Origin: Candidatus Omnitrophota bacterium
Lineage (GTDB): Bacteria > Omnitrophota > JACPQZ01
Assembly (NCBI GenBank): GCA_016190205.1
Contig: JACPQZ010000029.1
Coordinates: 1-34,765, forward strand
Direction: 5' to 3'
DNA: 34,765 bases
Part shown: positions 1 through 34,511 of the stretch, in pieces
How positions within the stretch are numbered: position 1 is the first letter of the stretch
How the letters are laid out: every line of letters starts with the position of its first letter
Translations under genes and position numbers: made by a program
Notes under the pieces: generated by a model
Databases searched by the model: none
The model's input: the letters and a program-made list of their open reading frames with translations, nothing else
What the model was told of the DNA's origin: nothing

Positions 1-221
1 TCCATAATGGTTCGCGCCTTCTGATACGTATGCGCCGTCCGCTCTCCTTTAAGCCACGCGCTTGACGCGCCCCGGAACACCACCACGACCGACGTCACAA
101 TGACCATCATGACCGTCAGCGCCACGAGAAGCTCAACGAGAGTAAACCCGATCGTACTGCGTACAGCGTACTGCGTACTGCGTGAAAACTTAAAATGGCT
201 TTTCTCTTTCGCTGTACGCAC
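1..221 (-). CDS. Type II secretion/type IV pilus minor pseudopilin, GspJ-like, 3' end outside window
   Basis: The reading frame contains GFTLVELLVALTVMMVIVTS, the prepilin peptidase site (cut after Gly, Glu at +5) followed by the hydrophobic pilin helix, so the product should be processed and assembled in a pseudopilus at the inner membrane. The sequence runs off the window at position 1, so only about 73 residues are visible. The only normal start codon upstream in frame is GTG at 221-219, which gives a leader of about 25 residues, several times the usual 6-10. That leader is partly encoded by the heptamer array at 154-181 (residues STQYAVRST). Its position after a gspI-like gene suggests the GspJ slot; the exact subunit is inferred. 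The start codon is uncertain because the repeat seems to have replaced the native leader. Confidence 0.75.
   Translation of the reverse strand, partial: MRTAKEKSHFKFSRSTQYAVRSTIGFTLVELLVALTVMMVIVTSVVVVFRGASSAWLKGERTAHTYQKARTIM
154..181. repeat. Heptanucleotide tandem array, 4 units of GTACWGC
   Basis: Four consecutive 7-bp units (GTACTGC, GTACAGC, GTACTGC, GTACTGC) lie immediately upstream of the prepilin cleavage site of the minus-strand pseudopilin. Three units make 21 bp or seven codons, so the array stays open and reads as a heptapeptide-like pattern in that gene. Confidence 0.9.
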
Positions 222-345
222 GACGCTGTACGCTGTACGAATCTCGCTCGCCCCGACGTTGCGCCGTACGCACGACGCTGTACGCTGTACGAATCCTGCT
301 CGCCCCGACGGTGCGCCGTACGCACGACGCTGTACGCTGAACGAA
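211..345. repeat. 52-bp tandem repeat built from GCTGTAC heptamers
   Basis: The block CACGACGCTGTACGCTGTAC begins at 219, 271 and (diverging after 15 bases) 323, a period of exactly 52 bp, about 2.5 copies. Within each copy the unit GCTGTAC recurs; it is the reverse complement of GTACAGC, so this is the same heptamer family in the other orientation. It fills the spacer between the two pseudopilin genes. No other gene is visible in the spacer. Confidence 0.88.
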
Positions 346-353
346 CCCAGTTA

Positions 354-836
354 TTACCGGTTAAGGTACGTCGCAAACTCTTTTTTGTAGGTCTCTCCAC
401 GGTCCTCCCAGCTCACGACGACGGCCACGCGCCGGAGTTCATTTGGGAAACCCAGCCCCACCCCGGGCTCATCCACGATGCTGGGTCCCAGAATTTCCCA
501 CGAGACGTGTCCCGTTTCTCCCTTAAGCTCAAGTGCGCCAGGGCGGGGTTCGCGCCCCTCAAGTTCGTACTGGGCGAGCTCATCCGCCCACTCCTCGACG
601 GCCGCAAGCCCCACACGTTCGACTTCCTCAAGCCGCTCGCGCGCCGCCAAAGTGGCCTCGTTGGCCAGGCGACCCTTCCGGCTCGCCCGCAAGCCCGCCG
701 GAAAAAGCTGTAACACGCTCACGAGCCCTACGGTCAAGAGCACCAAGGCAATCGTTATTTCAAGGAGCGAAAAACCCTTTTCGTACTGCGTACTGCGTAC
801 AGCGTACTGCGTAATGCGTAATGCGTAATGCGTCAT
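354..836 (-). CDS. Type II secretion/type IV pilus minor pseudopilin, GspI/PilV-like
   Basis: About 160 residues with the prepilin signature KGFSLLEITIALVLLTVGLVS: cleavage after Gly, Glu at +5, then a 20-residue hydrophobic helix, typical of GspI/PilV-type minor pseudopilins that sit at the pseudopilus tip in the inner membrane. The chosen start is ATG 836-834, which overlaps the stop of the upstream four-helix-bundle gene as ATGA, suggesting translational coupling; no good Shine-Dalgarno is visible. Residues 2-18 (THYALRITQYAVRSTQY) are encoded by a heptamer array, so the leader is about 20 residues instead of the usual few. A longer frame from 896 is open but has no support. Two consecutive TAA codons follow the gene. 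Confidence 0.85.
   Translation of the reverse strand: MTHYALRITQYAVRSTQYEKGFSLLEITIALVLLTVGLVSVLQLFPAGLRASRKGRLANEATLAARERLEEVERVGLAAVEEWADELAQYELEGREPRPGALELKGETGHVSWEILGPSIVDEPGVGLGFPNELRRVAVVVSWEDRGETYKKEFATYLNR
783..831. repeat. Heptanucleotide tandem array, 7 units of GTAMWGC
   Basis: Seven contiguous 7-bp units: GTACTGC twice, GTACAGC, GTACTGC, then GTAATGC three times. It lies wholly inside the 5' coding end of the gspI-like gene, between its ATG and the prepilin cleavage site. Confidence 0.92.
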
Positions 837-1189: not shown

Positions 1190-1204
1190 TTCACGCTCCA
1201 CAGC

Positions 1205-1303
1205 TCACGCTGTACGCACGACGCTGTACGCTGTACGCTGTACGAATCCCGCTCGCCCCCACGTTACGCTGTACGCACGACGCTGTACGCTGTACGAATC
1301 ACG
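1205..1303. repeat. GCTGTAC heptamer-derived repeat, two 59-bp copies
   Basis: The same CACGACGCTGTACGCTGTAC block seen at 219-345 begins at 1217 and again at 1276. It occupies nearly all of the spacer between the four-helix-bundle gene and the stop codon of the gspF-like gene. Nothing else is recognisable in this spacer. Confidence 0.88.
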
Positions 1304-1304
1304 C

Positions 1305-2423
1305 TTAACCCATGAGTTTCGCAAGTGTAAACAACGGCAAAAACATGGCGACCACAATAAATCCCACAATCAAGCCCATCACGACGATCATGATGGGCTC
1401 GAGGAGCGCGGTAAGACCTGAAACGGTCTGGTCAATCTCCTCCTCATAGGTATCCGCAATGCGGATGAGCATCTGATCGAGCTCGCCTGACTCTTCTCCC
1501 ACACCAATCATCTTGGCGACGAGCTGGGGGAAAAACCCGCTCGCCTCAAGGGGCTTCGTGATGCCTTCGCCCTCGCGCACGCTGTCGTGCACCCTCGTGA
1601 TCGCCTGGGCCAGCACCCGGTTTTCACCCGTCTCGCGCACGATGGTCAAGGCGCCCAGAACCGGCACGCCGCTATTTAAAAGCGTGCCGAAGGTGCGCGC
1701 AAACTGCGCCACGGCGATCTGCCGGATCAAGGGTCCAAAGAGAGGGATCTTGAGTTTAAACCGGTCTACGGGGAGCCGGAATCTTTCCGCGCGCACAAAG
1801 GCCCGCAGCCCGAATATGATTCCGGCGACCAATAGAATGGCCAGATACCAAAAGTTCCGCAGAAAATCGCTCGTCGCGATAAGAAGCCGCGTCGCGATGG
1901 GCAGCTCCCCGCCGAGCTCCTCAAACATGCTCGTAAAAGTTGGGATTACGAAAACCATTAGGAGTATCAGAATAAGCCCGGCTATGGTGAGCACAAAAAT
2001 CGGGTACATGAGGGCGCTCTTGATCTTACCCCGCAGGCGCTCCTGCTTCTCCAAAAACTCGGCCAGGCGCTTCAAAACACCTTCGAGCACCCCTCCGAGC
2101 TCCCCGGCGCGAACCATGTTCGTAAAAAGGCGTGGGAAGACCTTTCCGTGCTTGGCAAGGCTTTCGGAAAAACTCTCGCCCCCCGTGATGTCCACCGTTA
2201 CTTTCTCAAGGGCCTCCTTGAGGGTCCCGGGTTCCATCTGTGTCTCCAGGGTACGGATGCTTTTGACCAGGGGAAGCCCCGCCCCCATCAAGGTCGCAAG
2301 CTCCCGCGTGAATACCACGAGCTGCTTGGCCGTCACCCCGCGCCGCGCAAAGAGGCGCTTCGCGCTCAACTCGCGCTTGAGTGCGTCTACGCTTACCTGG
2401 GCATGCGTCTTATTGTCTGCCAT
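1305..2423 (-). CDS. gspF: Type II secretion/type IV pilus inner-membrane platform protein, GspF/PilC family
   Basis: The 372-residue product has the full GspF architecture: two homologous cytoplasmic helical domains (about 30-135 and 230-340), each with the family pattern FTRELATLMGAGLPL or FARTFGTLLNSGVPV, and three membrane helices near 140-162, 190-210 and 343-367. It is the polytopic platform that links the secretion or pilus ATPase to pseudopilin assembly. Length is slightly short of the usual ~400 but nothing essential looks missing. It heads the operon that continues into the pseudopilins. The start is ATG 2423-2421; no strong Shine-Dalgarno is seen. A good sigma-70 promoter lies 35-63 bp upstream. 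Whether it serves a secretion system or a pilus cannot be told here. Confidence 0.92.
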   Translation of the reverse strand: MADNKTHAQVSVDALKRELSAKRLFARRGVTAKQLVVFTRELATLMGAGLPLVKSIRTLETQMEPGTLKEALEKVTVDITGGESFSESLAKHGKVFPRLFTNMVRAGELGGVLEGVLKRLAEFLEKQERLRGKIKSALMYPIFVLTIAGLILILLMVFVIPTFTSMFEELGGELPIATRLLIATSDFLRNFWYLAILLVAGIIFGLRAFVRAERFRLPVDRFKLKIPLFGPLIRQIAVAQFARTFGTLLNSGVPVLGALTIVRETGENRVLAQAITRVHDSVREGEGITKPLEASGFFPQLVAKMIGVGEESGELDQMLIRIADTYEEEIDQTVSGLTALLEPIMIVVMGLIVGFIVVAMFLPLFTLAKLMG

Positions 2424-2457
2424 ATTGCGTCTAACCCAAATTCTTGCCTACAGTTAG

Positions 2458-2486
2458 AGTATACTGGAAATAAAAACCCGCGTCAA
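2458..2486 (-). promoter_or_regulatory. Sigma-70-like promoter of the gspF operon, overlapping a terminator
   Basis: On the minus strand, TTGACG (2486-2481), a 17-bp spacer and TATACT (2463-2458) make a good promoter 35 bp upstream of the gspF ATG. The -35 box sits in the loop and 3' arm of the terminator hairpin at 2477-2499, so transcription termination of the upstream toxin-antitoxin unit and initiation here share sequence. Confidence 0.7.
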
Positions 2487-2499
2487 CGAACGACGCGGG
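2468..2499 (-). terminator. Intrinsic terminator of the toxin-antitoxin unit; copy 1 of a 32-bp direct repeat
   Basis: On the minus strand the arms CCCGCGTC and GACGCGGG form a perfect 8-bp stem with a 7-base loop, followed by TTTTTATTT. It lies 55 bp after the toxin stop. The 32-bp block matches 3202-3233 at 31 of 32 positions. Confidence 0.85.
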
Positions 2500-2554
2500 T
2501 GTAAGATGTGGGTTTTTATAAGGTTATGCTATCGCTTCTCCAGAACTCAGGATG

Positions 2555-3295: not shown

Positions 3296-6200
3296 CTAGC
3301 GCAGAAGGACTCGCACGGTTCCTTGTTTGCCTTCCTCCAGGCCTTCCCACGCGGTGCCGATTACCTGGCTTGCGCTAACCGGTTCACTGCCCGCGGATTG
3401 AGCGACGCCCGGCAGGGGGCTCGCGACCAGAAAATCTCCACTTTGTATGGGCCCGACCGCCTTGACGGGGACCGTACCCAATAAAGCGATAGGGTAACTG
3501 CCCTCCCGGTCGCCGCTCAAAATCCACCCGGGCTGGGTGGAGACGACGCCCGCAATAGGACCTTCCCGCGCACGATTAGATCGCTTCACGAACTCCGGCT
3601 CATCGCCCATCACAACCACGTCGCCCGGTTCGAGCTTCTCTTTCGACCAGTAGTTCTCGGCCACGTCGCCCGCCGTGACGTTTCCGGAAGGGGCGAATAT
3701 CGTGCCGTCTACCTCTAAGTTGCCTTCGATGTACAGATCGTCATCCGAGTTTATAACGGCCTGATCCGGGATGGTGTTATCTGCAATAATGTTGTAGGCA
3801 AATCCATACGTACCGCCCACGTTAAATGAACCTGTCCCATCCGTACCAACGAAGAGATTACCGTCAAAAAACACGCTTTCGTCCACCTCGAGATCGCCGT
3901 CAATGAAGAGGTCGTCGTCCGCACTTATCGGAGTGGTATAAGTTGCCCCTCCGACGCCACTAAAATTATTATATGCCGTCTGCCCGAAGCCGCCCACTGC
4001 CAAGGTGCTCGTTATCTGGACAGATCCATTGATCGTAAGATCATTGGCGGCGAGGCTCAAGAGGTTGGTGTCCGAGCTTATGCCGATCTCGCTTCCGTCC
4101 ACCGCGAGGTCTCCATCCATCTCAAGGGTTTCCAGCATGTAATTGGGACCATCCACCACATAGAGCCCCCACGTGTCGTCCGAATCGATGTAGACCCCGT
4201 AGCTCGTGCCGGTGACGTTGGAGACACTGGCGTACACGGCGTAGTTCGTGTCGGCGGAATCGGCCTGGGCATAAACACCGTAATTGGTTGTGGTGGAATA
4301 CACATTTCCAGTCGCGATGCCATACACCCCGTAATTGTTGTACGTGGGGGTCGTTGGGCCACTTCCTGCAGAAGCCGCCGCACCATAAACACCGTACAGG
4401 TTGAAGGTATCGGTGTCTACCGCAACTCCGGAATAATCCGCATCCACGCGAAGACCGTACGTATTATGCGTGTGGCCGTTTGTTTGGGTCGTCCTGTTAT
4501 CGTCTAAATCGATATACTGACCATAATTTGTCAGGGAGGTTACGTTATGCGTTCCACCCAAGTCAAAGTCCAAAAAGATGAGCCGCCGGTCGGTTTCTTC
4601 GGCCGTGGTGGGCGCGTCGATGACCTGGATACTGTAATCGTCGTTGTTCACGGCAGTGGTACCCACCGCGAGCTCTCCAGTAACACCGACGCTTTCAAAA
4701 TAAGAGCTTTCATTCACCTCTAGAGTTCCATCGATAAAAAGGTCGTCGGGCCCATTGACCTCGCCAGTATAGGTTGCTCCTCCTGCATCATAGAAGGTGC
4801 TATAAGGAAACTGCGTGGCGCTCCCCACAGTCAATGCGCTGGTTATGGCGACAGACCCATTGACCGTTAGGTCATTGGCGGCCATGCTTAGTAGATTCGT
4901 GTCAGAGGAAATGCCGATCTCGCTTCCGTCCACCATGAGGTCGCCTTCCACGGTCACCAGATTGGCCGTGAGGCCGATGAGGTCGGTGTCGGAAGACATC
5001 CCGATCTGACTGCCGTTGACGTAGAGATCGCCCGAAAGGGTCATGTATCCGGTACCTACCAGAGTCGTCGCAGAGAGGGAGCCATTGACCGTAAGAAGAT
5101 TGGCGGCCATAGACAAAAGATTGGTGTCGCTGGTTAAGCCGATCTCACTGCCGTCCACGATAAGGTCTCCATCCATTTCAAGAGTTTCCAGCATGTAGTT
5201 GGGCCCGTCCACCACATAGAGCCCCCACGTGTCGTCCGAATCGATGTAGACCCCGTAGCTTGTGCCGGTGACGTTGGCGACGCGGGCATACACCGCATAA
5301 TTAGTATCACCGGAATTTGCTTGAGCCCAAATACCGTAATTTAACGTACTATCGTTTTCGTTACCGGTAGCCGCCACATAAGCGCCGTAATTATTACGAG
5401 TAGGCGCTCCAACATCGCTCCCACCTGTGGTGCTCGCGACTCCGTAGATGGCATATTGGTTATTCGTATCATCTCCAGGGGTCCTACCGGTGTGATCTAC
5501 ATCTACCCTAAGTCCATATAAATTTTGCGGGCCCGTTACTCCAGAGACATGATCTCTGGTATCATCCACATCAATATATTGTCCATAATTGCTGGTTGTG
5601 AGACCAGTAGTTGATCCAGCTATGTCAAAGTTCGCAAAGATGAGCCGCCGGTCGGTCTCATCGTTCGTGGAAGGCGCGTCGGCTATCGTCAAGCTGTAGT
5701 CTGCGTTGTTCACGAGCGTTGTTCCCACCGCGAGCTCTCCAGTCACACCCAAAACAGAGGTCACCCTTTGTGTTCCTAACACGTCAAGGAGATTAGCGGC
5801 CAGGCTCAAAAGATCTGCGTCGGTGGCCAGGCCGATCTGGCTTCCCTGGACGGCCAGGTCCCCTTCCACGATAAGGGAGCCGTTCACCTCCAGGCGGTTG
5901 GCTAAGAGGTCTATAATATCCGCGTCCGAGGCCATGCCAATTTGACTGCCCTCTACCTGAAGGTCACCGCCCAGCGTGAGGCCAAATGACGTCCATGTGC
6001 CGTCCACGTCCAGGTCGTCATCCGTGAGGGTGATCTTGTCCCCTGCCGTGAGATTGGTATCACCAGATATGTCAATGGTGGAAAGCGACGTCCCTGTGTG
6101 GGTGTGCCCGGGGTCAGCCCCGGTAGTCACGTTCGCCCCCGTGACGGTGGTCGCGGCCATGGTACCGTTGACCGTAAGGACGTCGGCTGCCAGGCTCATG

Positions 6201-9200
6201 AGATCGGTGTCGGAAGACATCCCGATCTGACTGCCGTTGACTTCGATATCTTCGGCAAAGAGGGCGTTTAAGGTCGTGTTATTTCCGAGCCGCATGGCCT
6301 CCGACATGCCGCCGTTTAATATGGCGCTAAACCTTAAGGACGCAATTTCGGTCGTGTCCGTTGCAGAATCCCATACAGCTTCAATCTGCACGGCTTCAGT
6401 CGCGTTGCCTGCTCCAATTCCGTCAAAATCCTCCAGGTAAAAAGATTGCCTCGCGCCCATTCCAGCCGCCCCGCCCGTAGTCCCTTCATCGTCCACCTGG
6501 AGCCTCATGATTTGGGCGACCGCATTTGACGGCCCTGTGTCCAAAATATGGACGCTGTCTGTGAGCGTGCCGTTGATGTCGAGCTGGTTGGCGGCCAGGG
6601 ATAATAGATCTGCATCGCTTGCGAGCCCGATCTGGCTCCCCTGGACGGCCAAGTCCCCTTCCACGATAAGCGAGCCATTCACCTCCAAGCGGTTGTCTAA
6701 GAGGTCTATAATATCCGCGTCGGAGGCCAGGCCAATTTGACTGCCCTCTACCTGAAGGTCGCCGCCCAGCGTGAGCCCAAACGTTGTCCATGTTCCGTCC
6801 ACGTCCAGGTCGTCATCCGTGAGCGTGATCTTGTCCCCGGCCGTGAGGTTGGTGTCATCAGAGATGTCAATGGTGGAAAGCGACGTCCCTGTGTGCGTGT
6901 GCCCGGGGTCTGCCCCGCTTGTGACATTGGCCCCTGTCACCGTGGTCGCGGCCATCGTGCCATTGACTGTAAGAAGATTGGCGGCAAGAGACATAAGATT
7001 GGTATCGGACGTGAGACCGATTTCGCTGCCATCCACCGCGAGGTCTCCATCCATCTCCAGAGTTTCCAGCATGTAGTTGGGCCCGTCCACCACATAAAGC
7101 CCCCACGTGTCGTCCGAATCGATGTAAACCCCGTAGCTTGTGCCGGTGACGTTGGCTACACGGGCGTACACGGCATAATTTTGAGTACCGGAATTTGCTT
7201 GAGCCCAAAGACCGTAATTGCTCGTATTTTCATTCACGTTACCGGTTGCTATCACATAAGCGCCGTAGTTATTACGGCTAGGGTTGTTTCCTGGATCTTC
7301 TGGTCCCGTCGTGCTCACGGCCCCGTAAAGAGCATATTGGTTATTCGTGTCGTCGCCAGGCGTGGATCCGGTGTGATCTACATCTACCCTTAGTCCATAT
7401 AAATCTTGCGGACCGGTTGGCCCTCCAGACGAGTGCGTTCTCGTATCATCCACATCAATATACTGACCATAATTGCTGGTTAAGCCGCCCGTCGTTGTGC
7501 CGCTCAAATCGAAATTTGTAAAGACCAGGCGCCGGTCGGTCTCATCGTTTGTGGAAGGCGCGTCGGCAATCGTCACGCTGTAGTCGGCGTTGTTCACGAG
7601 CGTTGTTCCCACCGCAAGCTCTCCAGTCACACCCAAAACAGATGTCACCCTTTGTGTACCTAACACATCAAGGAGGTTAGCGGCCAGGCTCAAAAGGTCT
7701 GCGTCCGAGGCCAGGCCAATTTGACTGCCCTCTACTTGAAGGTCACCGCCCAGCGTGAGGCCAAATGACGTCCATGTGCCGTCCACGTCCAGGTCGTCAT
7801 CTGTCAGCGTGATCTTGTCCCCTGCCGTGAGATTGGTATCACCAGATATGTCAATGGTGGAAAGCGACGTCCCTGTGTGGGTGTGGCCGGGGTCTGCCCC
7901 GGTAGTCACATTCGCCCCCGTGACGGTCGTCGCGGCCACGGTGCCGTTGACCGTAAGGACGTCGGCTGCCAGGCTCATGAGATCGGTGTCGCTGGTTAAG
8001 CCTATTTGGGAACCGTTGACTTCCACATCTCCGGCGACGGTTAAGATATTGGCCGCTAAAGTCAAGAGGTCTGTATCGCTGGTTAAACCCACTTGGCTTC
8101 CATCAACTTCCACATCCCCTGTCACATTTAAGGTATCATCTATTTTAACGTCTCCAGAGGCATTTCCTGCCAGAAGGGTAAAGTCATTAAAGGACCCCGT
8201 CACTTGGAGAGAGCCATAATTTTCGGCTGACGCTCCTGTGGGATAGCCATAGATGCGCATCTCTTGATTCTCTCCAGAGGTGGAATCTTCATACCACCAG
8301 TTTGCGAGATTGCCTCCAGGAAGCGTTGAAATGACAGCGGATTGTCCGGCATCAAGTGACGCGAATGTAACAGCAGTTACGGTATCATTCGTAAAATAGA
8401 TACCCGGGTCTTCCCCTGCCGTATTTCTCACAACAATCCCTGCGGCGGAACCCGAAAAAATACTATCTATCTCAACAAATGAACCAGATGCAAGAGTGCC
8501 TATAGGCGGCGCGGTCTCGTAAAAGTTAATGTCAGGGTTTGCTCCCATGATAACTATCCCAGAGCTGGGGCCCATCTGAAAAGTCTTAGAACCTCCTGTG
8601 GATAAGTAAAATGCCCCATCGTTTGTGGATAGGTTTTTCACCACAACGGACAAATCTTCCGTGCGGAATTGATCTCCTTCAATGCTCCCGTCCACATCCA
8701 AAAGAACGCTGGAAAGAGTCATTAAATCGGCTTTTGTAGCAAGCCCGATCTGGCTCCCCTGGACCGCGAGGTCTCCTTCTACGATCAAAGAGCCATTGAT
8801 TTCCAGGCGGTCTGCCAAGAGGTCCATGAGATCGGTGTCGCTCGTCATGCCGATCTGACTCCCGTCCACGAAGAGGTCCCCGCTTGTGATGACGTTTTGA
8901 GCGAAGGTGACGCTTTCACCGGCGTCGATCGTGATGGCCGCCGCGTCGGAGGTGTCGGTGATGCCGGAGCTTGTGAGTGTATCGGAATCGCTGAATTTAC
9001 CCAGGCGGTTCGTGGTGCCAGAGCCGTCTATCTCGCCCGATACAGAGGCGGTCGTGTGGGTGTGGCCGGGGTCTTCCCCGGAAGTGACGTTGGCCCCCGT
9101 GACGGTCGTTGCGGCCAGGGTGCCATCCACGGTTAAGACGGTGGAGGCCAGGGCCAAGAGATTGGTGTCCGAGGCAAGCCCCACGTTACTCCCCTCCACG

Positions 9201-11200
9201 AAGAGGTCTCCGGCTAAGGTTAAGTTTCCGGCCCTCGTTAAGGTGAGCTGGGTCGTGGCCCCCACGTCGGCATTGGTGTTGTCGACACTAAATTTCAGTG
9301 AGTCTGTATCAGAGTTATCTATCCCTATGGCCCAGACGCTTCCCACCACATCCAAGTACAGGGAAGCGTCGCCCGTGGCATCCTGCCGGATTCTTAACGC
9401 TCCCCGGACGTCCGTGTTGCTTTCGAAAAGGTCCAAGTTAGTAGCGGGAGTTGAGGTTCCGATCCCAACGGGGGCATCTGAAAGAAAAGAGCCATTGATG
9501 TCTACCAGGTTGGCGGTGAGGCTTATAAGATCCGCGTCCGAGGCAAGCCCGATCTGGCTCCCCTGGACGGCCAGGTCCCCTTCCACGATTAGAGAGCCAT
9601 TGATCTCGAGGCGGTCGGCTAAGAGGTCTATGAGATCCAAATCAGACGTGATTCCAATCTGGGAGCCATTGACCACAAGATCTCCGCTCGCGATGACATT
9701 CTGGGCAAAGGAGACACTTTCCCCGGCGTCAATCGTGATGGCCACCGCGTCGGAGGTGTCGGTGATGCCGGAGCTTGTGAGCGTATCGGAATCGCTGAAT
9801 TTACCCAGGCGGTTCGTGGTGCCGGAGCCGTCGATGTCACCGGAAACGGAGCCCGACGTGTGGGTGTGCCCGGGGTCGCTACCGCTCGTGACGTTGTCCC
9901 CAAAAACCGTTCCGCTCACCTCGAGGCTTCCCTCGATATAAACGTCGTCATCCGAACCGATCACGCTTTGGGACGCCGTCCCCGAATCGCTGAAGGCGTT
10001 GTAAGCCACACCCGAGACCCCGCCGGCCATGACATTGCTGCTGACCAGGAACGAGCCTACCACCTCAAGCTGCGAGTCCGGAGTCGCATCCCCAATGCCT
10101 ACCATCAAGTCAAAATGGGCCGTTCCGTCGACATCAAAGATCGTATCGGAATCCAAAGTAAGGGTGCCGGTCTCGAACGTGTCGCTCGTAGTCGCACGCA
10201 GAAAATCCCCCGTGCCGAACCCGTCGAGGGTGGTGGCACGGATTCCGATCTGGGTGGCGTCGGTAAGATCAATTGTCCCGTTTACGTCCACCTGGGCCCC
10301 CGCGGCAACAGTCAGGGTTGTACCGGGACTGCCGTACGTATCGGTCACATCCGCGCGGAGAAACTGCGTGGAGTCGAGGTCATCCAGGGTGTCCGCATCT
10401 ACTGCTATCAAGGTGCCGCTAAACGTGCCGAATATCGTTCCGTCCACCTCGAGATCGCCGCGGATGAAAAGATCATCTGCCGACGCCACTTCACTCTGGC
10501 CGGCGGAGGTTGCGGCCGAGGAAATAGCGCTATAAGCCCTTTGTCCGATGCCGCCCACCGCGATCGCGCTCGCGCTCGTAAAGCTCCCGCTCACAGAAAG
10601 AATTGCTCCGGAGCTTATAGTCAATGTCCCGGACGTGAAGCTGTCGCTTGTGTCGGAGCGCAATAGTGATGCCCCTTCAATAGCATCCACCGTATCGGCA
10701 TTGAAGGCATAGCCCACGGGGGTAAGCTGTTGGCGGGGGGAAAGGGTCGTTCCGTCCACGGTGATCTCGAGATAATAAGTCTGATCCCAGTCTAGGGCAG
10801 AGAGGACGGTGCCCGCAGTGACCGTTCCAGATCCGTCACCGATGACGCGATTAAAAATTCCGCTCGTGACCGAAATATTTTTGCTTTCTGAATAGAGGGC
10901 GGAGCCCCCCGACGAGGCGGTGTAAAAGGCGAAAGTGATGCTTTTCGTTGCCGTTACGGGGTTTCCGCTTGAATCGAGGAGCTTTCCTTGGTAGGTCAGG
11001 GTGTCCGGAACGCCGGCGGATTCTGCGCGCTCAAGCGGCGTGACGACCAGGCAAACAACGGTAAAAACAAAGAAGACGAGCATGACCCGTGCCGCCAGGC
11101 AAGGTCCTTGGCTCGTCCTAAAATATCGAACGCCTCTTACGAGGCTCGTCCCACGGTCTCTCTCACCCACTAGGCACCTAGCTCCTGTGCCCTGACTCAC
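3296..11200 (-). CDS. Giant repetitive secreted surface-fibre protein with C-terminal chaperone-like domain
   Basis: Up to 2634 residues. Near residue 40 a signal-like segment starts (MLVFFVFTVVCLVV, Ala-x-Ala cleavage near 62), then a head region with TLTYQGKLLDSSGNPV and PRQQLTPVGYAFNADTVD, common at the start of S74-linked fibre proteins. The body has 18 copies of a ~30-residue beta unit with core V-x-GSQIGL-x-SD-x-DLLSLAAN, PGHTHT linkers, and three ~215-residue cassettes with YGVYIDSDDTWGLYVVDG. The last ~115 residues (VAENYWSKEKLEPGDVVVMG ... IAGVVSTQP) resemble the C-terminal Peptidase_G2-like intramolecular chaperone. It is probably a trimeric exported beta-fibre; that is inference. 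The start is unclear: GTG 11200 gives a 39-residue extension before the signal; ATG 11083 or a CTG at 11098 with AAGGA upstream are alternatives. An intrinsic terminator follows. Confidence 0.85.
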   Translation of the reverse strand: MSQGTGARCLVGERDRGTSLVRGVRYFRTSQGPCLAARVMLVFFVFTVVCLVVTPLERAESAGVPDTLTYQGKLLDSSGNPVTATKSITFAFYTASSGGSALYSESKNISVTSGIFNRVIGDGSGTVTAGTVLSALDWDQTYYLEITVDGTTLSPRQQLTPVGYAFNADTVDAIEGASLLRSDTSDSFTSGTLTISSGAILSVSGSFTSASAIAVGGIGQRAYSAISSAATSAGQSEVASADDLFIRGDLEVDGTIFGTFSGTLIAVDADTLDDLDSTQFLRADVTDTYGSPGTTLTVAAGAQVDVNGTIDLTDATQIGIRATTLDGFGTGDFLRATTSDTFETGTLTLDSDTIFDVDGTAHFDLMVGIGDATPDSQLEVVGSFLVSSNVMAGGVSGVAYNAFSDSGTASQSVIGSDDDVYIEGSLEVSGTVFGDNVTSGSDPGHTHTSGSVSGDIDGSGTTNRLGKFSDSDTLTSSGITDTSDAVAITIDAGESVSFAQNVIASGDLVVNGSQIGITSDLDLIDLLADRLEINGSLIVEGDLAVQGSQIGLASDADLISLTANLVDINGSFLSDAPVGIGTSTPATNLDLFESNTDVRGALRIRQDATGDASLYLDVVGSVWAIGIDNSDTDSLKFSVDNTNADVGATTQLTLTRAGNLTLAGDLFVEGSNVGLASDTNLLALASTVLTVDGTLAATTVTGANVTSGEDPGHTHTTASVSGEIDGSGTTNRLGKFSDSDTLTSSGITDTSDAAAITIDAGESVTFAQNVITSGDLFVDGSQIGMTSDTDLMDLLADRLEINGSLIVEGDLAVQGSQIGLATKADLMTLSSVLLDVDGSIEGDQFRTEDLSVVVKNLSTNDGAFYLSTGGSKTFQMGPSSGIVIMGANPDINFYETAPPIGTLASGSFVEIDSIFSGSAAGIVVRNTAGEDPGIYFTNDTVTAVTFASLDAGQSAVISTLPGGNLANWWYEDSTSGENQEMRIYGYPTGASAENYGSLQVTGSFNDFTLLAGNASGDVKIDDTLNVTGDVEVDGSQVGLTSDTDLLTLAANILTVAGDVEVNGSQIGLTSDTDLMSLAADVLTVNGTVAATTVTGANVTTGADPGHTHTGTSLSTIDISGDTNLTAGDKITLTDDDLDVDGTWTSFGLTLGGDLQVEGSQIGLASDADLLSLAANLLDVLGTQRVTSVLGVTGELAVGTTLVNNADYSVTIADAPSTNDETDRRLVFTNFDLSGTTTGGLTSNYGQYIDVDDTRTHSSGGPTGPQDLYGLRVDVDHTGSTPGDDTNNQYALYGAVSTTGPEDPGNNPSRNNYGAYVIATGNVNENTSNYGLWAQANSGTQNYAVYARVANVTGTSYGVYIDSDDTWGLYVVDGPNYMLETLEMDGDLAVDGSEIGLTSDTNLMSLAANLLTVNGTMAATTVTGANVTSGADPGHTHTGTSLSTIDISDDTNLTAGDKITLTDDDLDVDGTWTTFGLTLGGDLQVEGSQIGLASDADIIDLLDNRLEVNGSLIVEGDLAVQGSQIGLASDADLLSLAANQLDINGTLTDSVHILDTGPSNAVAQIMRLQVDDEGTTGGAAGMGARQSFYLEDFDGIGAGNATEAVQIEAVWDSATDTTEIASLRFSAILNGGMSEAMRLGNNTTLNALFAEDIEVNGSQIGMSSDTDLMSLAADVLTVNGTMAATTVTGANVTTGADPGHTHTGTSLSTIDISGDTNLTAGDKITLTDDDLDVDGTWTSFGLTLGGDLQVEGSQIGMASDADIIDLLANRLEVNGSLIVEGDLAVQGSQIGLATDADLLSLAANLLDVLGTQRVTSVLGVTGELAVGTTLVNNADYSLTIADAPSTNDETDRRLIFANFDIAGSTTGLTTSNYGQYIDVDDTRDHVSGVTGPQNLYGLRVDVDHTGRTPGDDTNNQYAIYGVASTTGGSDVGAPTRNNYGAYVAATGNENDSTLNYGIWAQANSGDTNYAVYARVANVTGTSYGVYIDSDDTWGLYVVDGPNYMLETLEMDGDLIVDGSEIGLTSDTNLLSMAANLLTVNGSLSATTLVGTGYMTLSGDLYVNGSQIGMSSDTDLIGLTANLVTVEGDLMVDGSEIGISSDTNLLSMAANDLTVNGSVAITSALTVGSATQFPYSTFYDAGGATYTGEVNGPDDLFIDGTLEVNESSYFESVGVTGELAVGTTAVNNDDYSIQVIDAPTTAEETDRRLIFLDFDLGGTHNVTSLTNYGQYIDLDDNRTTQTNGHTHNTYGLRVDADYSGVAVDTDTFNLYGVYGAAASAGSGPTTPTYNNYGVYGIATGNVYSTTTNYGVYAQADSADTNYAVYASVSNVTGTSYGVYIDSDDTWGLYVVDGPNYMLETLEMDGDLAVDGSEIGISSDTNLLSLAANDLTINGSVQITSTLAVGGFGQTAYNNFSGVGGATYTTPISADDDLFIDGDLEVDESVFFDGNLFVGTDGTGSFNVGGTYGFAYNIIADNTIPDQAVINSDDDLYIEGNLEVDGTIFAPSGNVTAGDVAENYWSKEKLEPGDVVVMGDEPEFVKRSNRAREGPIAGVVSTQPGWILSGDREGSYPIALLGTVPVKAVGPIQSGDFLVASPLPGVAQSAGSEPVSASQVIGTAWEGLEEGKQGTVRVLLR
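4040..4700. repeat. Fibre-gene cassette C (diverged copy)
   Basis: One of three ~650-bp coding cassettes in the giant fibre gene, running from VTGELAVGTT to LETLEMDGDLAVDGSEIG. The 3' part (4095-4215) is nearly identical to the other two copies while the centre is diverged. Confidence 0.8.
5110..5800. repeat. Fibre-gene cassette B
   Basis: Second copy of the ~650-bp cassette, closely matching cassette A (6990-7690) at nucleotide level over long stretches, including the segment encoding YGQYIDVDDTR and the DSDDTWGLYVVDG block. Confidence 0.85.
6990..7690. repeat. Fibre-gene cassette A
   Basis: Copy of the ~650-bp cassette closest to the N-terminus. It is flanked on both sides by near-identical modules encoding PGHTHTGTSLSTIDIS (around 6790-6930 and 7770-7910), with a third at 6000-6140 next to cassette B. 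Confidence 0.85.
11081..11200 (-). promoter_or_regulatory. Possible structured 5' leader of the giant fibre mRNA
   Basis: If translation starts near 11083-11098, about 120 nt here are untranslated. They contain a GCCTC-GTAA-GAGGC hairpin with a GNRA loop, CTAG-GTGC-CTAG, outer arms GACCGTG ... CACGGGTC and two copies of GGACGAGCC. I recognise no known riboswitch class. The same bases can also be read as the N-terminal extension of the fibre protein. Confidence 0.3.
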
Positions 11201-17974: not shown

Positions 17975-20407
17975 TTACTTTTTTATAGCGGTTTTTCTCG
18001 GCTTGGCGGCCCGATTCTGGTTTCTGGTTACTGGTTTCTGGTTGCTTCCCATGAGCACTTCCACCTGATGCACCTTGCCGTCCGAATGGGGCCGAACGAC
18101 GTTTCCTTCGATCTTCTTTCCGTCCACGGTCACTTCCCTGACGCCCGACGTGACGCCCTCGGGGTTGCGCAGGGTGATTTCATACACCGCCCCCCGGAAC
18201 GGGCGGCGTATCCACGCGCGGCGCCACCGCTTGGGAAGACAGGGATCGATCTTGAGGCCCTCGTAGTCGCGCCGCGCGCCCAAAATCCACTCCGTCGCCG
18301 CGGTGAACATCCAGGGGGCCGTCCCGGTGTTCCAGGTAAACGCCCCCTCGCCGAATTTGTACTCCGAGCCCGGCCCGATCACGTACTCCGCCCAGACGTA
18401 GGGCTCCACGCGGTAGCGCTCCGCATCGGACTTGGCCGGGTTCATGGGGGTGAGCTTTTTGAAAGTTTCGTAGGCGCTGTCGCCGCGTTTCAAAACACAG
18501 TCCGCCACGATCTTAAAGGCGCAGGCGTGCGAAAAGACGGCCGCATTTTCCTTGGTGCCTTCCGCAAAAGACGTGACGCGGCCTATCCCAGGATTAAATT
18601 TTGAATAGGAGGGCAGGAACAAGGCCGGCCCGTACGGGGTCTCCAGATAATGGTCAATGACGTCGAGGATTTTTGGAAGCCGGTCCGGGGGAACCACCTT
18701 GCTCAAGATGGCCCACGTCTGGCTATTCAAAGGAACTTTGCCTTCCTTATTGTCAGCCGAGCCGATCTTATAACCGTCGTCATTAAAAGCCGCAAGGTAC
18801 CACTTGCCATCCCAGCCTTGCGTGTTGACGATTGTCTTAAGCTCTTCGTATTTTTCCTGCATTTCCTTGGCCGTTTTGGGATCGCCAACGAACTCCGCCA
18901 GGCGTTTTACCTTCCGGCAGGCGCGCGCGAGGGCCATTCCCAACCACACGCTCTCCCCCTCTCCCTTCAGGCCCACGTGGTCATAGGCGTCGTTCCAGTC
19001 GGCGAGCCCTATCAAGGGGAGCCCGTGGCTTCCGCGCTGGCTGTAAATATAGCGCACGGCGCGCAGGACGTGCTCATAAACCGTGGCGGAGCCCCCGTCG
19101 TGGAAGGCCACCTCCTTTTTCAAAAAGTTGAGATCCCCCGTCTCCTTGATATAGGAGGCCACGGTGTATGGAAGCCACACGGCCACATCGGCCTTCTTGG
19201 TCACGCCCTTGGCGGCCGTGTTTTCCCAGGTTCCTTCAATATCTGAAAAACCGCTCACGGCGTGGCCGGAGTTGTACTGATAATAGAGGATTTTTTCAAG
19301 CTTCTTGCGGGCGATATCAAGCTCGAGGGACAGAAGGCCCTCGGAATCTTGGGCCGTGTCGCGGTAACCCAGGCCCCCCTCCACCCCGTGATAGTGCGAA
19401 GTCCCCCGCCAGTGGGTGATGGCGCAAAGCTGATATTTGCCCCAGATATTGACCATGCGGTCGAATTCGGGGTCGGGGGTGTTCACGCTCACCCGCTCAA
19501 TCACTTCATCCCAATATTCCTTAATATGGGCGAGCTCTTTCTTGGCCTGGGGAACGCTCTTGTATTTCTTGAGGAGCTGTGGCACATCATTGCGTTTGTC
19601 GGTAAAGCCCAAGACGACTACGAATTCCTTCGATGCGCCGGGGGCAAGCTCCACCCCGGTCTCGAGCACACCCACCATGTCCTCGCCGCGCGTCTCGGAA
19701 TTGCCGAGTTTACCATCCAAAATACGCTGCGGATTCTGGATATCATTGTACCGCCCAAGAAAGGACTCTTTCTGCGTGTCATGACCGGTGACCTTGGCGC
19801 TCGTGCCGAAGAAGGACCAGCCCTGCTTGTGAAAATGCTTAAACGGGTGCTTAAACGAGATGATCGCCTCCTGTTTGTTATCGTACCGGGCCTCGTTGTA
19901 GAGACAGATGATGTTCCGGTAACACGTCTCGACTTCCACATCACCCGAAATAAATTCTACGAAGGGATAAACCTTGAGCTCTTTACGCACCTTAGACCTA
20001 TTGGTGAGGGACACGAGCCACAGCTCCACCGGGTCCTCAACGGTCACGAGATAGGTGATCTCGGCGGCGACTCCGTCATTTTGGCTTGTGATGGTCGTAT
20101 AGCTTAAGCCCTGGCGGCACTGCCATGAGGTAAGCGGTTTTCGAAATGGCTGCCAGTTGGGAGTCCAAACCTTACCCGTCTTTTCATCCCTGATAAAAAT
20201 ATACCGGCCGGGACGGTCGGTATGAATGTGATCATAACGGAGGATGCGATAGTATTTGGGATCGAGATAATAGCTGTAGCCGCCGCCGGAATGAGACACG
20301 AGGGCGTGATAGCGGTCATTAAACAGGTAGTTAAACCAAGGGCGGGGGGTATCGGGCCTGGTGATGATGTATTCTTTTCCATCCGAACTGAAATAACCGT
20401 AACTCAT
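17975..20407 (-). CDS. Glycoside hydrolase family 94 disaccharide phosphorylase
   Basis: 810 residues with GH94 architecture: N-terminal beta-sandwich (about 1-270, starting SYGYFSSDGKEYIITRPDTP), a helical linker, an (alpha/alpha)6 barrel and a C-terminal beta sheet. The proton donor is expected to be Asp470 in GLADWND; GYRDTAQD and the final EYVIGPG and TGTAPWM blocks are also typical. It phosphorolyses a beta-linked disaccharide into an alpha-sugar 1-phosphate plus a free sugar. Cellobiose or N,N'-diacetylchitobiose are the usual substrates; the sequence alone does not choose. No signal peptide, so cytosolic. ATG 20407 follows GGAGGATTA. The C-terminus (QKPVTRNQNRAAKP) is encoded through a TGGTYNC heptamer array. 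It lies between a ROK regulator gene and a phosphohexomutase, which fits regulated catabolism. Confidence 0.9.
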   Translation of the reverse strand: MSYGYFSSDGKEYIITRPDTPRPWFNYLFNDRYHALVSHSGGGYSYYLDPKYYRILRYDHIHTDRPGRYIFIRDEKTGKVWTPNWQPFRKPLTSWQCRQGLSYTTITSQNDGVAAEITYLVTVEDPVELWLVSLTNRSKVRKELKVYPFVEFISGDVEVETCYRNIICLYNEARYDNKQEAIISFKHPFKHFHKQGWSFFGTSAKVTGHDTQKESFLGRYNDIQNPQRILDGKLGNSETRGEDMVGVLETGVELAPGASKEFVVVLGFTDKRNDVPQLLKKYKSVPQAKKELAHIKEYWDEVIERVSVNTPDPEFDRMVNIWGKYQLCAITHWRGTSHYHGVEGGLGYRDTAQDSEGLLSLELDIARKKLEKILYYQYNSGHAVSGFSDIEGTWENTAAKGVTKKADVAVWLPYTVASYIKETGDLNFLKKEVAFHDGGSATVYEHVLRAVRYIYSQRGSHGLPLIGLADWNDAYDHVGLKGEGESVWLGMALARACRKVKRLAEFVGDPKTAKEMQEKYEELKTIVNTQGWDGKWYLAAFNDDGYKIGSADNKEGKVPLNSQTWAILSKVVPPDRLPKILDVIDHYLETPYGPALFLPSYSKFNPGIGRVTSFAEGTKENAAVFSHACAFKIVADCVLKRGDSAYETFKKLTPMNPAKSDAERYRVEPYVWAEYVIGPGSEYKFGEGAFTWNTGTAPWMFTAATEWILGARRDYEGLKIDPCLPKRWRRAWIRRPFRGAVYEITLRNPEGVTSGVREVTVDGKKIEGNVVRPHSDGKVHQVEVLMGSNQKPVTRNQNRAAKPRKTAIKK
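18017..18044. repeat. Heptanucleotide tandem array, 4 units of CTGGTTN
   Basis: CTGGTTT, CTGGTTA, CTGGTTT, CTGGTTG in a row, inside the 3' end of the GH94 gene. Written as TGGTTNC it matches the TGGTCGC array at 23572 as a TGGTYNC family. Confidence 0.92.
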
Positions 20408-21895: not shown

Positions 21896-21915
21896 CAGAC
21901 ACACATGTGTGTCTA
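21896..21915. repeat. REP palindrome, second 5' copy next to the RAYT ribosome site
   Basis: Same sequence as 21821-21840 except the last base (G to A), 75 bp further on and ending 5 bases before the GAGGAGG ribosome site of the transposase gene. Confidence 0.88.
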
Positions 21916-21933
21916 TCTGAGAGGAGGTATGTT

Positions 21934-22581
21934 ATGGCAACACCACGCATAGTTCTACCAGACTACCCTCATCACGTAATTCAGCGAGGGAATAGAAATC
22001 AAAGGGTGTTTTTCACAGATCAGGACCGAAAGGCATATCTACGATTCCTTGAAGAGGCGGTTGCCAAATACCGCCTTGAATGTTGGGCTTATTGCCTTAT
22101 GGACAACCATGTCCATTTGGTGCTTGTTCCAAGGACACAAGACTCTTTGGCAAGGTGCATTGGAGAGGTGCATTATAGATATTCCCTGATGGTCAACACT
22201 AGAAATGGCTGGGCCGGCCATCTCTGGCAAGGTCGCTTTTTGAGCTATCCTATGGAAGAAAGGCACCTCTATGCAGCGGTGCGTTACGTGGAGTTGAACC
22301 CCGTGCGAGCTGGCTTGGCTGCGCTAGCTGAAGATTACCAATGGTCCAGCGCAAGGGCTCACGTCCATCAAGTGCACGACAGGCTGCTAACCGAGAGTTT
22401 CCTAAATCAAGAGTTAAGAAACTGGAGGAACTATCTTTACGATCAGGAAGATGTTTCAATGACTGAACAAATTGAAGATCACATGAAGAACGGCTCACCG
22501 ATGGGAAGCGGCGAGTTTGTCAGTGCCGCTTCCAGACACACTGGGGTGTCTGGCAGACACCCCAGTGTGTCTGCCAGCTAG
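21934..22581 (+). CDS. REP-associated tyrosine transposase (RAYT, Y1/TnpA_REP family)
   Basis: 215 residues. The single-strand-transposase HUH motif is His59-Val-His61 in LMDNHVHLVLVP and the catalytic Tyr is expected at Tyr118 in AAVRYVELNPVRAG; QRGNRNQRVFF and DYQWSSARAH are also family hallmarks. RAYTs are domesticated IS200-like enzymes that recognise and mobilise REP hairpins. ATG 21934 is set by GAGGAGG six bases upstream. Two REP palindromes precede it, and a REP doublet forms the 3' end of the coding sequence (residues RHTGVSGRHPSVSA). All catalytic residues are present, so it looks intact. It is on the plus strand, unlike its neighbours, and its last four bases overlap the convergent gene at 22578. 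Confidence 0.93.
   Translation: MATPRIVLPDYPHHVIQRGNRNQRVFFTDQDRKAYLRFLEEAVAKYRLECWAYCLMDNHVHLVLVPRTQDSLARCIGEVHYRYSLMVNTRNGWAGHLWQGRFLSYPMEERHLYAAVRYVELNPVRAGLAALAEDYQWSSARAHVHQVHDRLLTESFLNQELRNWRNYLYDQEDVSMTEQIEDHMKNGSPMGSGEFVSAASRHTGVSGRHPSVSAS
22532..22575. repeat. REPIN: two inverted REP hairpins at the 3' end of the RAYT gene
   Basis: CCAGACAC-ACTGGG-GTGTCTGG followed directly by GGCAGACAC-CCCAGT-GTGTCTGCC. The 6-base centres are reverse complements, so the pair is a larger inverted repeat, the hallmark of a REPIN. It is read as coding sequence by the transposase gene. Confidence 0.9.
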
Positions 22582-23564: not shown

Positions 23565-24493
23565 TATTTGTTGGTCGCTGGTCGCTGGTCGCTGGTCGCT
23601 GGCGATGAGTGATCCTTTTCCTGGGGAGGAGTTGCAGGCAGAGCCCCCGGCCGGGGAGCGGAAGGCTCCTGAATCACTTCCCGAAATATCCCCTCGCCGT
23701 CGTTTTTGAGCGTCCGCTTAACCCCGCTGACGGTAAGCACAAGATCGGGGACACCATCCTGATTAAAATCTTCCACCCGTATCGCGCTCGCAAAAAAGAT
23801 GAAGGGCACCCCGTCTTTATCAAAAAGGCGTTTGATGGCCTCGTCCGCAAGATTTCCGCCCGCGTCACGCACCATAACCTCCACCAGCGCCTCCCCTCCG
23901 GTCTGAATGCTCGGATCCACCCGGATCAAGTCCTCATCTCCATCCCCATCGATATCCACCGGGACCGGTTCAATGGAAATGGGCCTGGCGTCAACCGGAG
24001 GAAAATCTTCAAAAGGAGGCGGCGGCATAAACTCCTCCGGCAAAAACTCCTCGGGAGGCGTTCCCTCCCAGGGGGGTTCTGGAAGCGGCGGCGGCTCTGT
24101 TTGAGAGGCTGGTGCGACGGGCCGGGGCTTCACGGCCGCGGCTTTCGCGGGTTTCTTGGAATCGGCGGGCGCGGGTCTCGCACCCCCGCCGTCGAAGCCT
24201 ACGGGACTTAAAATGGTAACGCTCCCGCCCGACGGAGCCGGGGTACGCGGCAAAGTTGTGATGGTCTGCGTTTCGGGTCCGGGTACAGGCGGGGTCACTA
24301 TAACTGGAGCGGGCGATGCTTCTTCCCCGGATTCCTGTCCCGCATCTATCTCGATATCACTGTCCGTATCAGACGGCAAGGCCTGCTGGGCGGCGGGCTC
24401 CGCGCGGATCTCCGCGCGAACGTCCACGCGCGAATCTGCACCAAAAGCGCTCGTGCTTAATAAAAAGAGGCAGATGAATGCGCGGATGAGCAC
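23564..24493 (-). CDS. Secreted proline-rich protein with calcium-loop-like repeats
   Basis: About 309 residues from GTG 24493, chosen because AGGAGG lies six bases upstream; a TTG at 24508 overlapping the previous stop is the alternative. A signal peptide (LIRAFICLFLLSTSAFGA) precedes a low-complexity Pro/Ala/Glu region (to about 190) and a C-terminal part with DIDGDGDEDLIRVD and DFNQDGVPDLVLTV, which are FG-GAP/dockerin-like Asp-rich loops likely to bind calcium. It is probably exported and may bind a partner or envelope. The last residues (SSPATSDQRPATNK) are encoded by the TGGTCGC heptamer array, a repeat-derived tail. No specific function can be assigned. Confidence 0.7.
   Translation of the reverse strand: MLIRAFICLFLLSTSAFGADSRVDVRAEIRAEPAAQQALPSDTDSDIEIDAGQESGEEASPAPVIVTPPVPGPETQTITTLPRTPAPSGGSVTILSPVGFDGGGARPAPADSKKPAKAAAVKPRPVAPASQTEPPPLPEPPWEGTPPEEFLPEEFMPPPPFEDFPPVDARPISIEPVPVDIDGDGDEDLIRVDPSIQTGGEALVEVMVRDAGGNLADEAIKRLFDKDGVPFIFFASAIRVEDFNQDGVPDLVLTVSGVKRTLKNDGEGIFREVIQEPSAPRPGALPATPPQEKDHSSPATSDQRPATNK
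23572..23599. repeat. Heptanucleotide tandem array, 4 units of TGGTCGC
   Basis: Four exact 7-bp units covering the 3' end of the FG-GAP-like gene, ending just before its stop codon. Confidence 0.95.
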
Positions 24494-33147: not shown

Positions 33148-34511
33148 TTACGGAAGAACGACGAAGGACGAGGGACGCGGGACGAAGGACGAGCGACGAG
33201 GGACGGCCCATGAGACGGGAGCGGATACTTATCTGGATCAGTGTCGCGATTCTCACGGCCATCGTCGTCCTCACCCTCATGCCCCTCATCCTGATGTTCT
33301 ATACCTCTTTCAAGCCCGCAGGCACTTTATTTCAGCCCGTGAGCGACATCCTGGTGGCGGATTTTAACGAGGGCGAGACGAACTCCATCGGGGGGGTCAT
33401 CGCGACCCGCGCGGATCCTTCGTCCGGCATAACCTTAGGAGATGCGGAAAACCGCGACCCCGAGAAACCCGGCCGCAGTCATACCATTGAGTATCGGCAC
33501 AGCCCGGGGTCCACCACGCTCTGGTGGACGCACCTGGGACAAGATTTGAGGAAATTCAGCGAGCTGGAGTTCTATGCCCGCGGGGAGGCGGGCGGCGAGA
33601 ACTTCTTAATAGAATTTTCCGATATTAACGATAGAACCATCTCATTGCCGCTCAAAGAGATACTGCCACAAGGCCTGACGCCCGAATGGCGCAGGATGAG
33701 GATTCCCGTCACGCGCTTCGACCTCTCCGGGCTCTTGCCCGGAATCTCCGAAAAACGCGCGGAGGAGCTTAGGTTTCGATTCACGGAACCCGGCTCCGGA
33801 CGCATTTACTTAGACGACATCCGCCTCCCCTTCAAACGTTTCACCATTTCAAATTACACCGACGTTGTGATCAGCGGCCCCTTCGGCCGCTACTTTTTTA
33901 ACAGCACCCTGATCGCGCTCATCGTAACGCTTGGAAACCTCATTTTCCCCGCCATGGTGGCCTATGCCTTTGCCCGTAAGGAATTTCCCGGGAAGCGCCT
34001 CATGTTTATCCTCATCGTGGGGAGCATCATGATTCCGCCGCAAGTCCTCATGGTGCCCGTCTTCATCCTTATGAAGAACATCGGCTGGCTCAACACCTAC
34101 TGGGCCCTGACGGTGCCGGCCCTCATCGCCCCCTTTAACATCTTCCTCATGCGCCAGTATATCTCCAAGCTTCCCCTCGCCATGGAAGACGCGGCGCGCG
34201 TCGACGGCGCGAACGACTTCCAGATCTTTTTCCGGATCATCCTCCCCCTTTCCAAACCGGCCTTGGCCGTGGTCGGCATCAACACCTTCATGGGAAGCTG
34301 GAATACTTTTCTTTACCCCTTCATCCTCACCAACACCACCGAGATGCGCACCCTCCCGGTAGGTCTTGCCCTCTACAAAAGCCTCCACGGCGTGGACTGG
34401 GTCCACCTCATGGCCGGCTCCGCCATCAGCGCCCTCCCCGTCATCGTCGTCTTCCTGTGCTTCCAACGGTACATCATTGCGGGACTTACGGCGGGAAGTG
34501 TGAAAGAGTAG
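33144..34511 (+). CDS. Sugar ABC transporter MalG-type permease with inserted periplasmic beta domain
   Basis: 455 residues versus ~280 for a normal MalG. After the first membrane helix (about 28-52) there is an inserted ~165-residue domain (about 68-235) with VADFNEGETNSIGGV, LEFYARGEAGGENFLIEFSD and GRIYLDDIRLP, resembling a CBM11/CIA30-like galactose-binding beta sandwich that would face the periplasm. The permease then resumes (YTDVVISGPFGRYFFNS) with the EAA loop EDAARVDGANDFQIFFRIILP. It pairs with the upstream binding-protein/MalF fusion (ATGA overlap). The N-terminus (RRRTRDAGRRTSDEGRP) is encoded by a GGACGAN heptamer array; ATG 33210, with GAGGGA supplied by the repeat, is an alternative start. 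The ATPase must come from elsewhere. Confidence 0.88.
   Translation: MITEERRRTRDAGRRTSDEGRPMRRERILIWISVAILTAIVVLTLMPLILMFYTSFKPAGTLFQPVSDILVADFNEGETNSIGGVIATRADPSSGITLGDAENRDPEKPGRSHTIEYRHSPGSTTLWWTHLGQDLRKFSELEFYARGEAGGENFLIEFSDINDRTISLPLKEILPQGLTPEWRRMRIPVTRFDLSGLLPGISEKRAEELRFRFTEPGSGRIYLDDIRLPFKRFTISNYTDVVISGPFGRYFFNSTLIALIVTLGNLIFPAMVAYAFARKEFPGKRLMFILIVGSIMIPPQVLMVPVFILMKNIGWLNTYWALTVPALIAPFNIFLMRQYISKLPLAMEDAARVDGANDFQIFFRIILPLSKPALAVVGINTFMGSWNTFLYPFILTNTTEMRTLPVGLALYKSLHGVDWVHLMAGSAISALPVIVVFLCFQRYIIAGLTAGSVKE
33154..33204. repeat. Heptanucleotide tandem array, about 7 degenerate units of RGGACGN
   Basis: AACGACG, AAGGACG, AGGGACG, CGGGACG, AAGGACG, AGCGACG, AGGGACG in register, in the 5' coding end of the MalG-type gene. 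Same family as the GGACGAN array in the phosphohexomutase gene. Confidence 0.88.

Follow-up and report, generated by a model that had tools for sequence, protein, structure and literature searches.

Inverted heptamer arrays as probable ends of small elements carrying a 23S rRNA-intervening sequence protein gene in an Omnitrophota genome

Why does a genome of the Omnitrophota carry tandem arrays of exactly seven base pairs, several of them translated, and where do these arrays come from? The question was raised by a stretch of 34,765 nt, the whole of which is called the window here, and for which a preliminary description had listed heptamer arrays at eight places, in three unit families, embedded in coding sequences. 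All eight were recovered with Tandem Repeats Finder and a simple autocorrelation scan, with offsets of a few bases (153-183, 210-345, 782-833, 1207-1303, 17557-17594, 18015-18043, 23572-23602 and 33156-33205), and the unit length of exactly 7 bp was borne out, the window holding 7 arrays of period 7 against none of periods 4, 5, 6 and 8-12. The span 210-345 consists of 2.6 copies of a 52-bp unit that itself contains GCTGTAC. An origin of the arrays in assembly error, which the same description had considered, is ruled out, since the arrays are 30-60 bp long and isolate genomes (Sphaerospermopsis, Thiohalocapsa, Geobacter) show the same arrangement. In our view the heptamer arrays are likely to form the ends of small insertion elements, a family that carries the gene of the 23S rRNA-intervening sequence protein (hereafter IVP), and arrays without the gene are likely to be derivatives or relics of such elements. 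Until now the IVP protein has been described chiefly from insertions within the genes for ribosomal RNA.

The arrangement can be read near the beginning of the window, where the following features lie on one strand.

1305-2423, minus strand: GspF/PilC gene upstream of the IVP element and co-directional with it
1205-1303, minus strand: 5' arm of the IVP element, reading CGTACAGCGTACAGC... in the sense of the gene and starting 1-2 bases past the gspF stop codon
833-1201, minus strand: IVP gene, 122 aa, 23S rRNA-intervening sequence protein, four helix bundle (PF05635, E 4.9e-39; TIGR02436, 4.4e-36)
782-833, minus strand: 3' arm of the IVP element, in inverted orientation to the 5' arm at 1205-1303, which it matches at 1207-1244 with a score of 26
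354-836, minus strand: type IV pilin-like (PilV-like) gene with an N_methyl motif (Pfam, 5.6e-05), its leader encoded by the 3' arm
210-345, minus strand: 5' arm, expanded to 2.6 copies of the 52-bp unit, of an element that belongs to the same family but lacks IVP
153-183, minus strand: 3' arm of the IVP-less element, matching 262-291 in inverted orientation with a score of 22

Along the minus strand, the gspF stop codon is followed by the 5' arm, the IVP gene, the 3' arm and the pilin gene, the two arms being inverted copies of each other (GTACTGC... and GCTGTAC...). The ATG of the pilin gene overlaps the stop codon of the IVP gene (junction read at 833-836), and the 3' arm at 782-833 is translated as the pilin leader, MTHYALRITQYAVRSTQYEKG followed by FSLLEI (FSLLEITIAL). 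A second pilin-like gene likewise has a leader into which the arm at 153-183 reads (..QYAVRSTIGFTLVELLVA.., then GFTLVELLVA). The inverted arms around the IVP gene, and the IVP-less copy formed by 153-183 and 210-345, had been overlooked in the preliminary description. The RNA of the window element is predicted to fold into a long stem (-187 kcal/mol, z -4.0). As a separate observation, the predicted leaders of two successive pilin-like genes are apparently supplied by element ends (RSTQYEKG before FSLLEI, RSTIG before FTLVEL).

The remaining four arrays of the window, all within predicted proteins, have no inverted partner, the first of them having none within 700 bp.

17557-17594, no strand assigned: solo CGACGGA array in the linker between domains I and II of a GlmM-like phosphoglucosamine mutase (SSVVRRPSSVVRR)
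18015-18043, no strand assigned: solo TTCTGGT array near the C-terminus of a GH94 protein (SNQKPVTRNQNR), with the unit found in the arms of the ACCAG family described below
23572-23602, no strand assigned: solo TGGTCGC array at the C-terminus of an FG-GAP protein (SSPATSDQRPATNK)
33156-33205, no strand assigned: solo GGACGAN array at the N-terminus of an ABC transporter permease

In the GlmM-like protein the length of the linker varies freely among homologues, and the array adds no length to the protein compared with homologues of ~30% identity, so that its tolerance at this place needs no special explanation. The comparison with orthologues lacking the repeat, proposed earlier as a check, gave variable linkers but no clean insert boundary, because the genome stands alone in its family and the homologues are only about 30% identical. 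Two other features of the window may be recorded, a repetitive protein of 2634 aa with long runs of near-identical modules (3296-11200) and a gene resembling REP-associated tyrosine transposases (Y1_Tnp, 21907-22581) that is unconnected with the heptamer arrays.

A genome-wide scan, also proposed in the preliminary description, was carried out on stretches, the window among them, amounting to 576 kb, about 35% of the 1.65 Mb of the genome, and revealed strong enrichment: 115 arrays of period 7 were found, most other periods from 2 to 30 giving 0-6 arrays each, and first-order Markov shuffles of the sample gave none of period 7. The sole other marked excess, at period 24 (20 arrays), could be due to coding repeats. 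The comparison drawn earlier with the short tandemly repeated repetitive (STRR) sequences of heterocystous cyanobacteria proved a good lead, and several dispersed 7-bp tandem families are present in the sample; in place of three unit families, however, about 40 classes of commonest unit were counted among the 115 arrays, with ACGCAGT/ACAGCGT (equivalent to GTACTGC of the window), ACCAGAT/AAACCAG and AATCGTG/AAGCACG as the most frequent. On a crude map of open reading frames, which cover 90% of the sample, 74 of the arrays fall outside the frames, 26 no further than 90 bp from the end of one and 15 in the interior, and the window is to this extent a somewhat misleading sample. The view of the arrays as embedded in coding sequences thus stands for those that are translated, some of which are indeed open in several frames and give peptides with a period of seven residues in a linker or at the ends of proteins, but not for the majority. 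An inverted partner was found within 600 bp for 64 of the 115 arrays, compared with 3 in random windows.

Arrays far exceed IVP genes in this genome, with 115 in about a third of it against five IVP genes in the whole. Arrays adjoin four of these five genes, with clear inverted arrays on both sides of those on contigs C13, C21 and C24 and weaker ones on C31, and none at the threshold used beside the gene on C16. The copy on C24 belongs to a family with arms of ~57 bp (ACCAG) composed of four heptamers, a 3-bp step and further heptamers. At least 16 inverted pairs of these arms occur in the 576-kb sample, their interiors measuring a few bases at the shortest and about 370 bp at the longest, and among 16 such pairs one holds an intact and one a truncated IVP gene. 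The family resembles a transposon with its miniature derivatives, the gene-less copies sharing their ends with the gene-bearing copy. Elements of one unit also occur between the arms of another (L027, 11670-11930; L041, 10920-11240), as is expected of insertions into insertions. The flanks of the 16 copies contain no consistent target-site duplication, and near-identical IVP-bearing copies within the genome are few, namely the full and the partial one on C24. At L028, the truncated (8964-9203) and full (10209-10690) IVP elements have ~25 bp of right flank in common, which takes in the first codons of a downstream carbamoyltransferase-like gene (ATGAGGATTTTAGGCAT), so that copying or duplication may extend past the arms.

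The association with IVP holds across the phylum. IVP genes are present in 172 of 285 Omnitrophota genomes, and a period-7 array lies within 200 bp of the gene at 25 of the 30 loci read outside the genome of the window. When these loci are taken together with its own, an array is found within 160 bp at 29 of 35, against 1 of 70 windows placed 800-900 bp away, and none of 19 Y1_Tnp transposase genes of the same phylum is flanked by period-7 arrays. Ten Omnitrophota genomes without IVP had 0 arrays in 305 kb, and ten with IVP had 21 in 400 kb, spread over six of the genomes.

The arrangement is also found in a large part of the bacterial domain. An IVP alignment was used to scan 84,980 species genomes, one per species, and at 80 named loci from more than 20 phyla arrays were found beside 49 (on both sides of 30), compared with 10 of 160 control windows matched for distance (800-900 bp from the IVP gene); the other 31 loci have no array at the threshold used. 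In the E. coli control genome, IVP was searched for and not found. Further IVP copies in six named genomes have arrays in 18 of 25 cases. Clear examples are those of Sphaerospermopsis (AGGGAAT x6 and ATTCCCT x6), Thiohalocapsa, Geobacter sp. AOG1, a Ruminococcus MAG and planctomycetes. When each left flank was compared with the reverse complement of its own right flank, the median score was 21 in the phylum and 19 in the set of more than 20 phyla, while direct comparison, control windows or mispaired loci scored about 9; the unit therefore differs from element to element and agrees, inverted, within each. Arrays on the 5' side of IVP are G-rich (65:13) and those on the 3' side C-rich (60:14), which shows that arms and gene are oriented as one unit. 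Similarity of the IVP proteins correlates with similarity of their units (Mantel r 0.21, reached in 0 of 2000 permutations), most strongly above 75% identity, so that shared descent contributes to this signal. The elements lie in sense between co-directional genes in 90 cases versus 11, and the Y1 control leans the same way (10 versus 4).

The units share an AGTNNNN-like motif, with an information of 3.30 against at most 2.78 in the permuted null, which the near-invariant G of the unit does not beat by itself. A stop codon in all three frames of the 5' array was considered as the cause of the 7-bp period and dismissed as not general, being present in 38 of 82 arrays on the 5' side and 18 of 77 on the 3' side. 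Two IVP copies on Calothrix and Trichormus plasmids were also considered as evidence of transposition, and proved uninformative because they lie in shared plasmid blocks.

Presence and absence of the element at a single site can be followed in Flavobacterium, where the gmk-nadD junction is empty in six species (gap of -2 to 9 bp) and occupied at L102, L099, L266, L271 and L278 by an IVP element of 427-524 bp with TAGTNNN and NNNACTA arms that extends from the gmk stop codon to the nadD start. A single array without IVP is found at L281. The IVP copies may represent one gain with later losses, or several gains. In about a dozen species (L263-L265, L267-L270, L273-L275, L284 and L290), the same site holds an unrelated imperfect hairpin of ~110 bp (CGCAGAGATACACAAAG ... 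CTTTGCGAATCTTTGTG), which is another small inverted-repeat element competing for it.

A prediction could be made for Xanthomonas, in which 89-93% of the GGGAATC heptamers are intergenic, each genome has 70-75 inverted pairs in convergent arrangement, and the repeats of two related species differ in placement (PMC4692102). One solved IVP structure, 2GSC, is that of XCC0516 from Xanthomonas campestris, and the element model predicts GGGAATC arms around IVP. Among 369 gammaproteobacterial genomes, one holds GGGAATCGGGAATCGGGAAT; its single IVP gene, frameshifted and located between accB- and accC-like genes, is flanked by the inverted arrays CGGGAATCGGCAATGGGGAATCGGGAATCG and TCCCTACTCCCCATTCCCGATTCCCG. 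The prediction is thus borne out in one case, which is independent of the building of the model.

The intervening sequences (IVSs) of 23S rRNA genes have long been suspected of being mobile, and the element described here is in effect their free-standing counterpart. The two have in common a protein of the IVP/S23p family, a length of about 430 bp and an ORF between pairable inverted ends (as in Coxiella, Leptospira and others). The likeness extends to the tandem heptamers at the 5' end in the 23S IVS of Coxiella burnetii, which is 428 nt long and is reported to have two to three GACAGAT units before its S23p ORF, with an RNase III site at the first repeat; excision of the IVS RNA by RNase III is established for this species (PMC4990558). 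Unlike the IVSs, the present elements are intergenic, that of the window lying between gspF and a pilin gene, and they come with several unit families per genome and numerous gene-less derivatives; given this difference in location, they are not to be classed as 23S IVSs in spite of their similar content and ends. A conserved 23S rRNA oligo was found near none of the IVP loci read. Separately, conserved 23S rRNA oligos lie about 980 bp apart at ~2894-3875 of L224 (G062:C2). In E. coli their spacing is roughly 260 bp, and the L224 gene probably holds an insertion of ~700 bp near the usual homing-intron site.

The STRRs of cyanobacteria, TAACTGA of Beggiatoaceae, GGGAATC of Xanthomonas and GGGGAYT of Nostoc resemble the present arrays in their 7-bp units, intergenic position and several families, but have been described as stand-alone repeats of unknown origin, and the STRR hosts are heterocystous cyanobacteria whereas the host here belongs to the Omnitrophota. 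Cyanobacterial IVP genes are flanked by AGGGAAT/AGGGAAC arrays, and one Flavobacterium IVP (L253) by TAACTGA-like arrays. An earlier link between free-standing IVP genes and heptamer arrays was not found in the open-access literature, which is weak evidence of novelty. Miniature inverted-repeat transposable elements (MITEs) and the REP/REPIN-RAYT systems are comparable in having many short inverted-pair copies for each gene-bearing copy, and REPs also in their lack of evident target duplication; in the present family, by contrast, the arms are tandem heptamer arrays and the gene is IVP and not a transposase, while RAYT/Y1 genes are not flanked by heptamer arrays. IVP is also a distant relative of the Avd protein of diversity-generating retroelements, matching the bAvd (1.4e-06) and DivGenRetAVD (1.6e-06) models, both below curated cut-offs; in contrast to those systems, no reverse transcriptase (RVT_1) was found in the genome of the window, which is 92.8% complete.

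A complete element would consist of a 5' heptamer array, an IVP gene of ~120 codons and the same array inverted, about 430-520 bp in total, situated in the gap from one gene's stop codon to the start codon of its neighbour and usually oriented as both genes. Gene-less pairs of arms and single arms, which make up most arrays in the genome, would be internally deleted, miniature-transposon-like derivatives and relics, and some of these would enter a neighbouring reading frame and be translated as seven-residue repeats. The observations behind this reading are the anatomy, the specificity for IVP, the polarity of orientation, the match of the units, presence and absence at one site, and nesting; from them we infer that the element is mobile. 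As RNA or as single-stranded DNA, one arm may fold back onto the other, and IVP may recognise its own arms by their 7-base register and bind them. Copies of the element could then arise at new sites through a host enzyme or through IVP, perhaps by way of the folded strand. IVP relatives appear to be pentameric, two solved ones having five chains each, and we know of no nuclease motif in IVP. A single-strand fold-back route agrees better than a cut-and-paste transposase with the missing target duplications. The sense position of the element in the surrounding message would permit excision from RNA by RNase III, as in the 23S IVS, and a role at the RNA level is supported by the prevailing sense orientation and the long predicted stem of the window element. 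Two other engines of movement were set aside, a reverse transcriptase on account of the missing RVT_1 and a RAYT/Y1 transposase on account of the array-free Y1 loci; no transposase gene was found to be associated with heptamer arrays.

Other readings have to account for the same observations. The arrays might be ordinary 7-bp repeats of the host, born by slippage, into which IVP cassettes insert preferentially. Their many-fold excess over IVP genes and the existence of single arrays without IVP, as at the Flavobacterium gmk-nadD site, would agree with this, yet insertion into a direct tandem array should leave direct flanks, and the flanks observed are inverted copies of one unit. Simple slippage, moreover, does not predict that period 7 alone is enriched, nor does the idea sit well with the array-free genomes lacking IVP or with an array orientation tied to that of the gene; we regard it as unlikely. 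The alternative that the arrays are regulatory RNA or DNA sites (for translational or transcriptional control, or as G-quadruplexes) with IVP as their regulator appears somewhat less probable still. It draws on the position of arrays just before start codons or just past stop codons, on their sense orientation in operons and on earlier proposals for TAACTGA in Beggiatoaceae and GGGAATC in Xanthomonas (PMC4679880, PMC4692102). A regulatory site, however, requires neither an inverted partner nor an internal gene, and hundreds of arrays adjoin unrelated genes, occupancy of the gmk-nadD site differs among congeneric species, and the published repeats of prominent length in Xcc and Xac lie at different genes. 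The suggestion of the preliminary description, that heptamers propagate inside genes, where they are tolerated as coding repeats, with no connection to an element, now seems very improbable: several window arrays are indeed translated, but across the genome the arrays are mainly intergenic or at gene ends, with few in ORF interiors, and two array pairs of the window flank or mimic an IVP element.

To our knowledge, IVP or four-helix-bundle genes are among the commonest unexplained small genes, and the function of the 23S IVS has not been resolved. The heptamer repeats of cyanobacteria, Beggiatoaceae, Xanthomonas and others have been reported without an origin. Both would receive one testable explanation if the repeats are the ends of IVP elements, an explanation which predicts the heptamer unit to be expected beside a given IVP gene and a scarcity of such arrays where IVP is lacking. 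It would also explain the seven-residue repeat tails of many predicted proteins as element ends spilling into reading frames. More tentatively, and with greater doubt on our part, IVP genes with inverted heptamer ends might constitute an unrecognised and very widespread class of prokaryotic mobile elements built from one protein and one 7-base register, of which the 23S IVSs would occupy one niche and the STRR, TAACTGA and GGGAATC families would be the debris, with IVP driving movement without any known transposase or reverse transcriptase.
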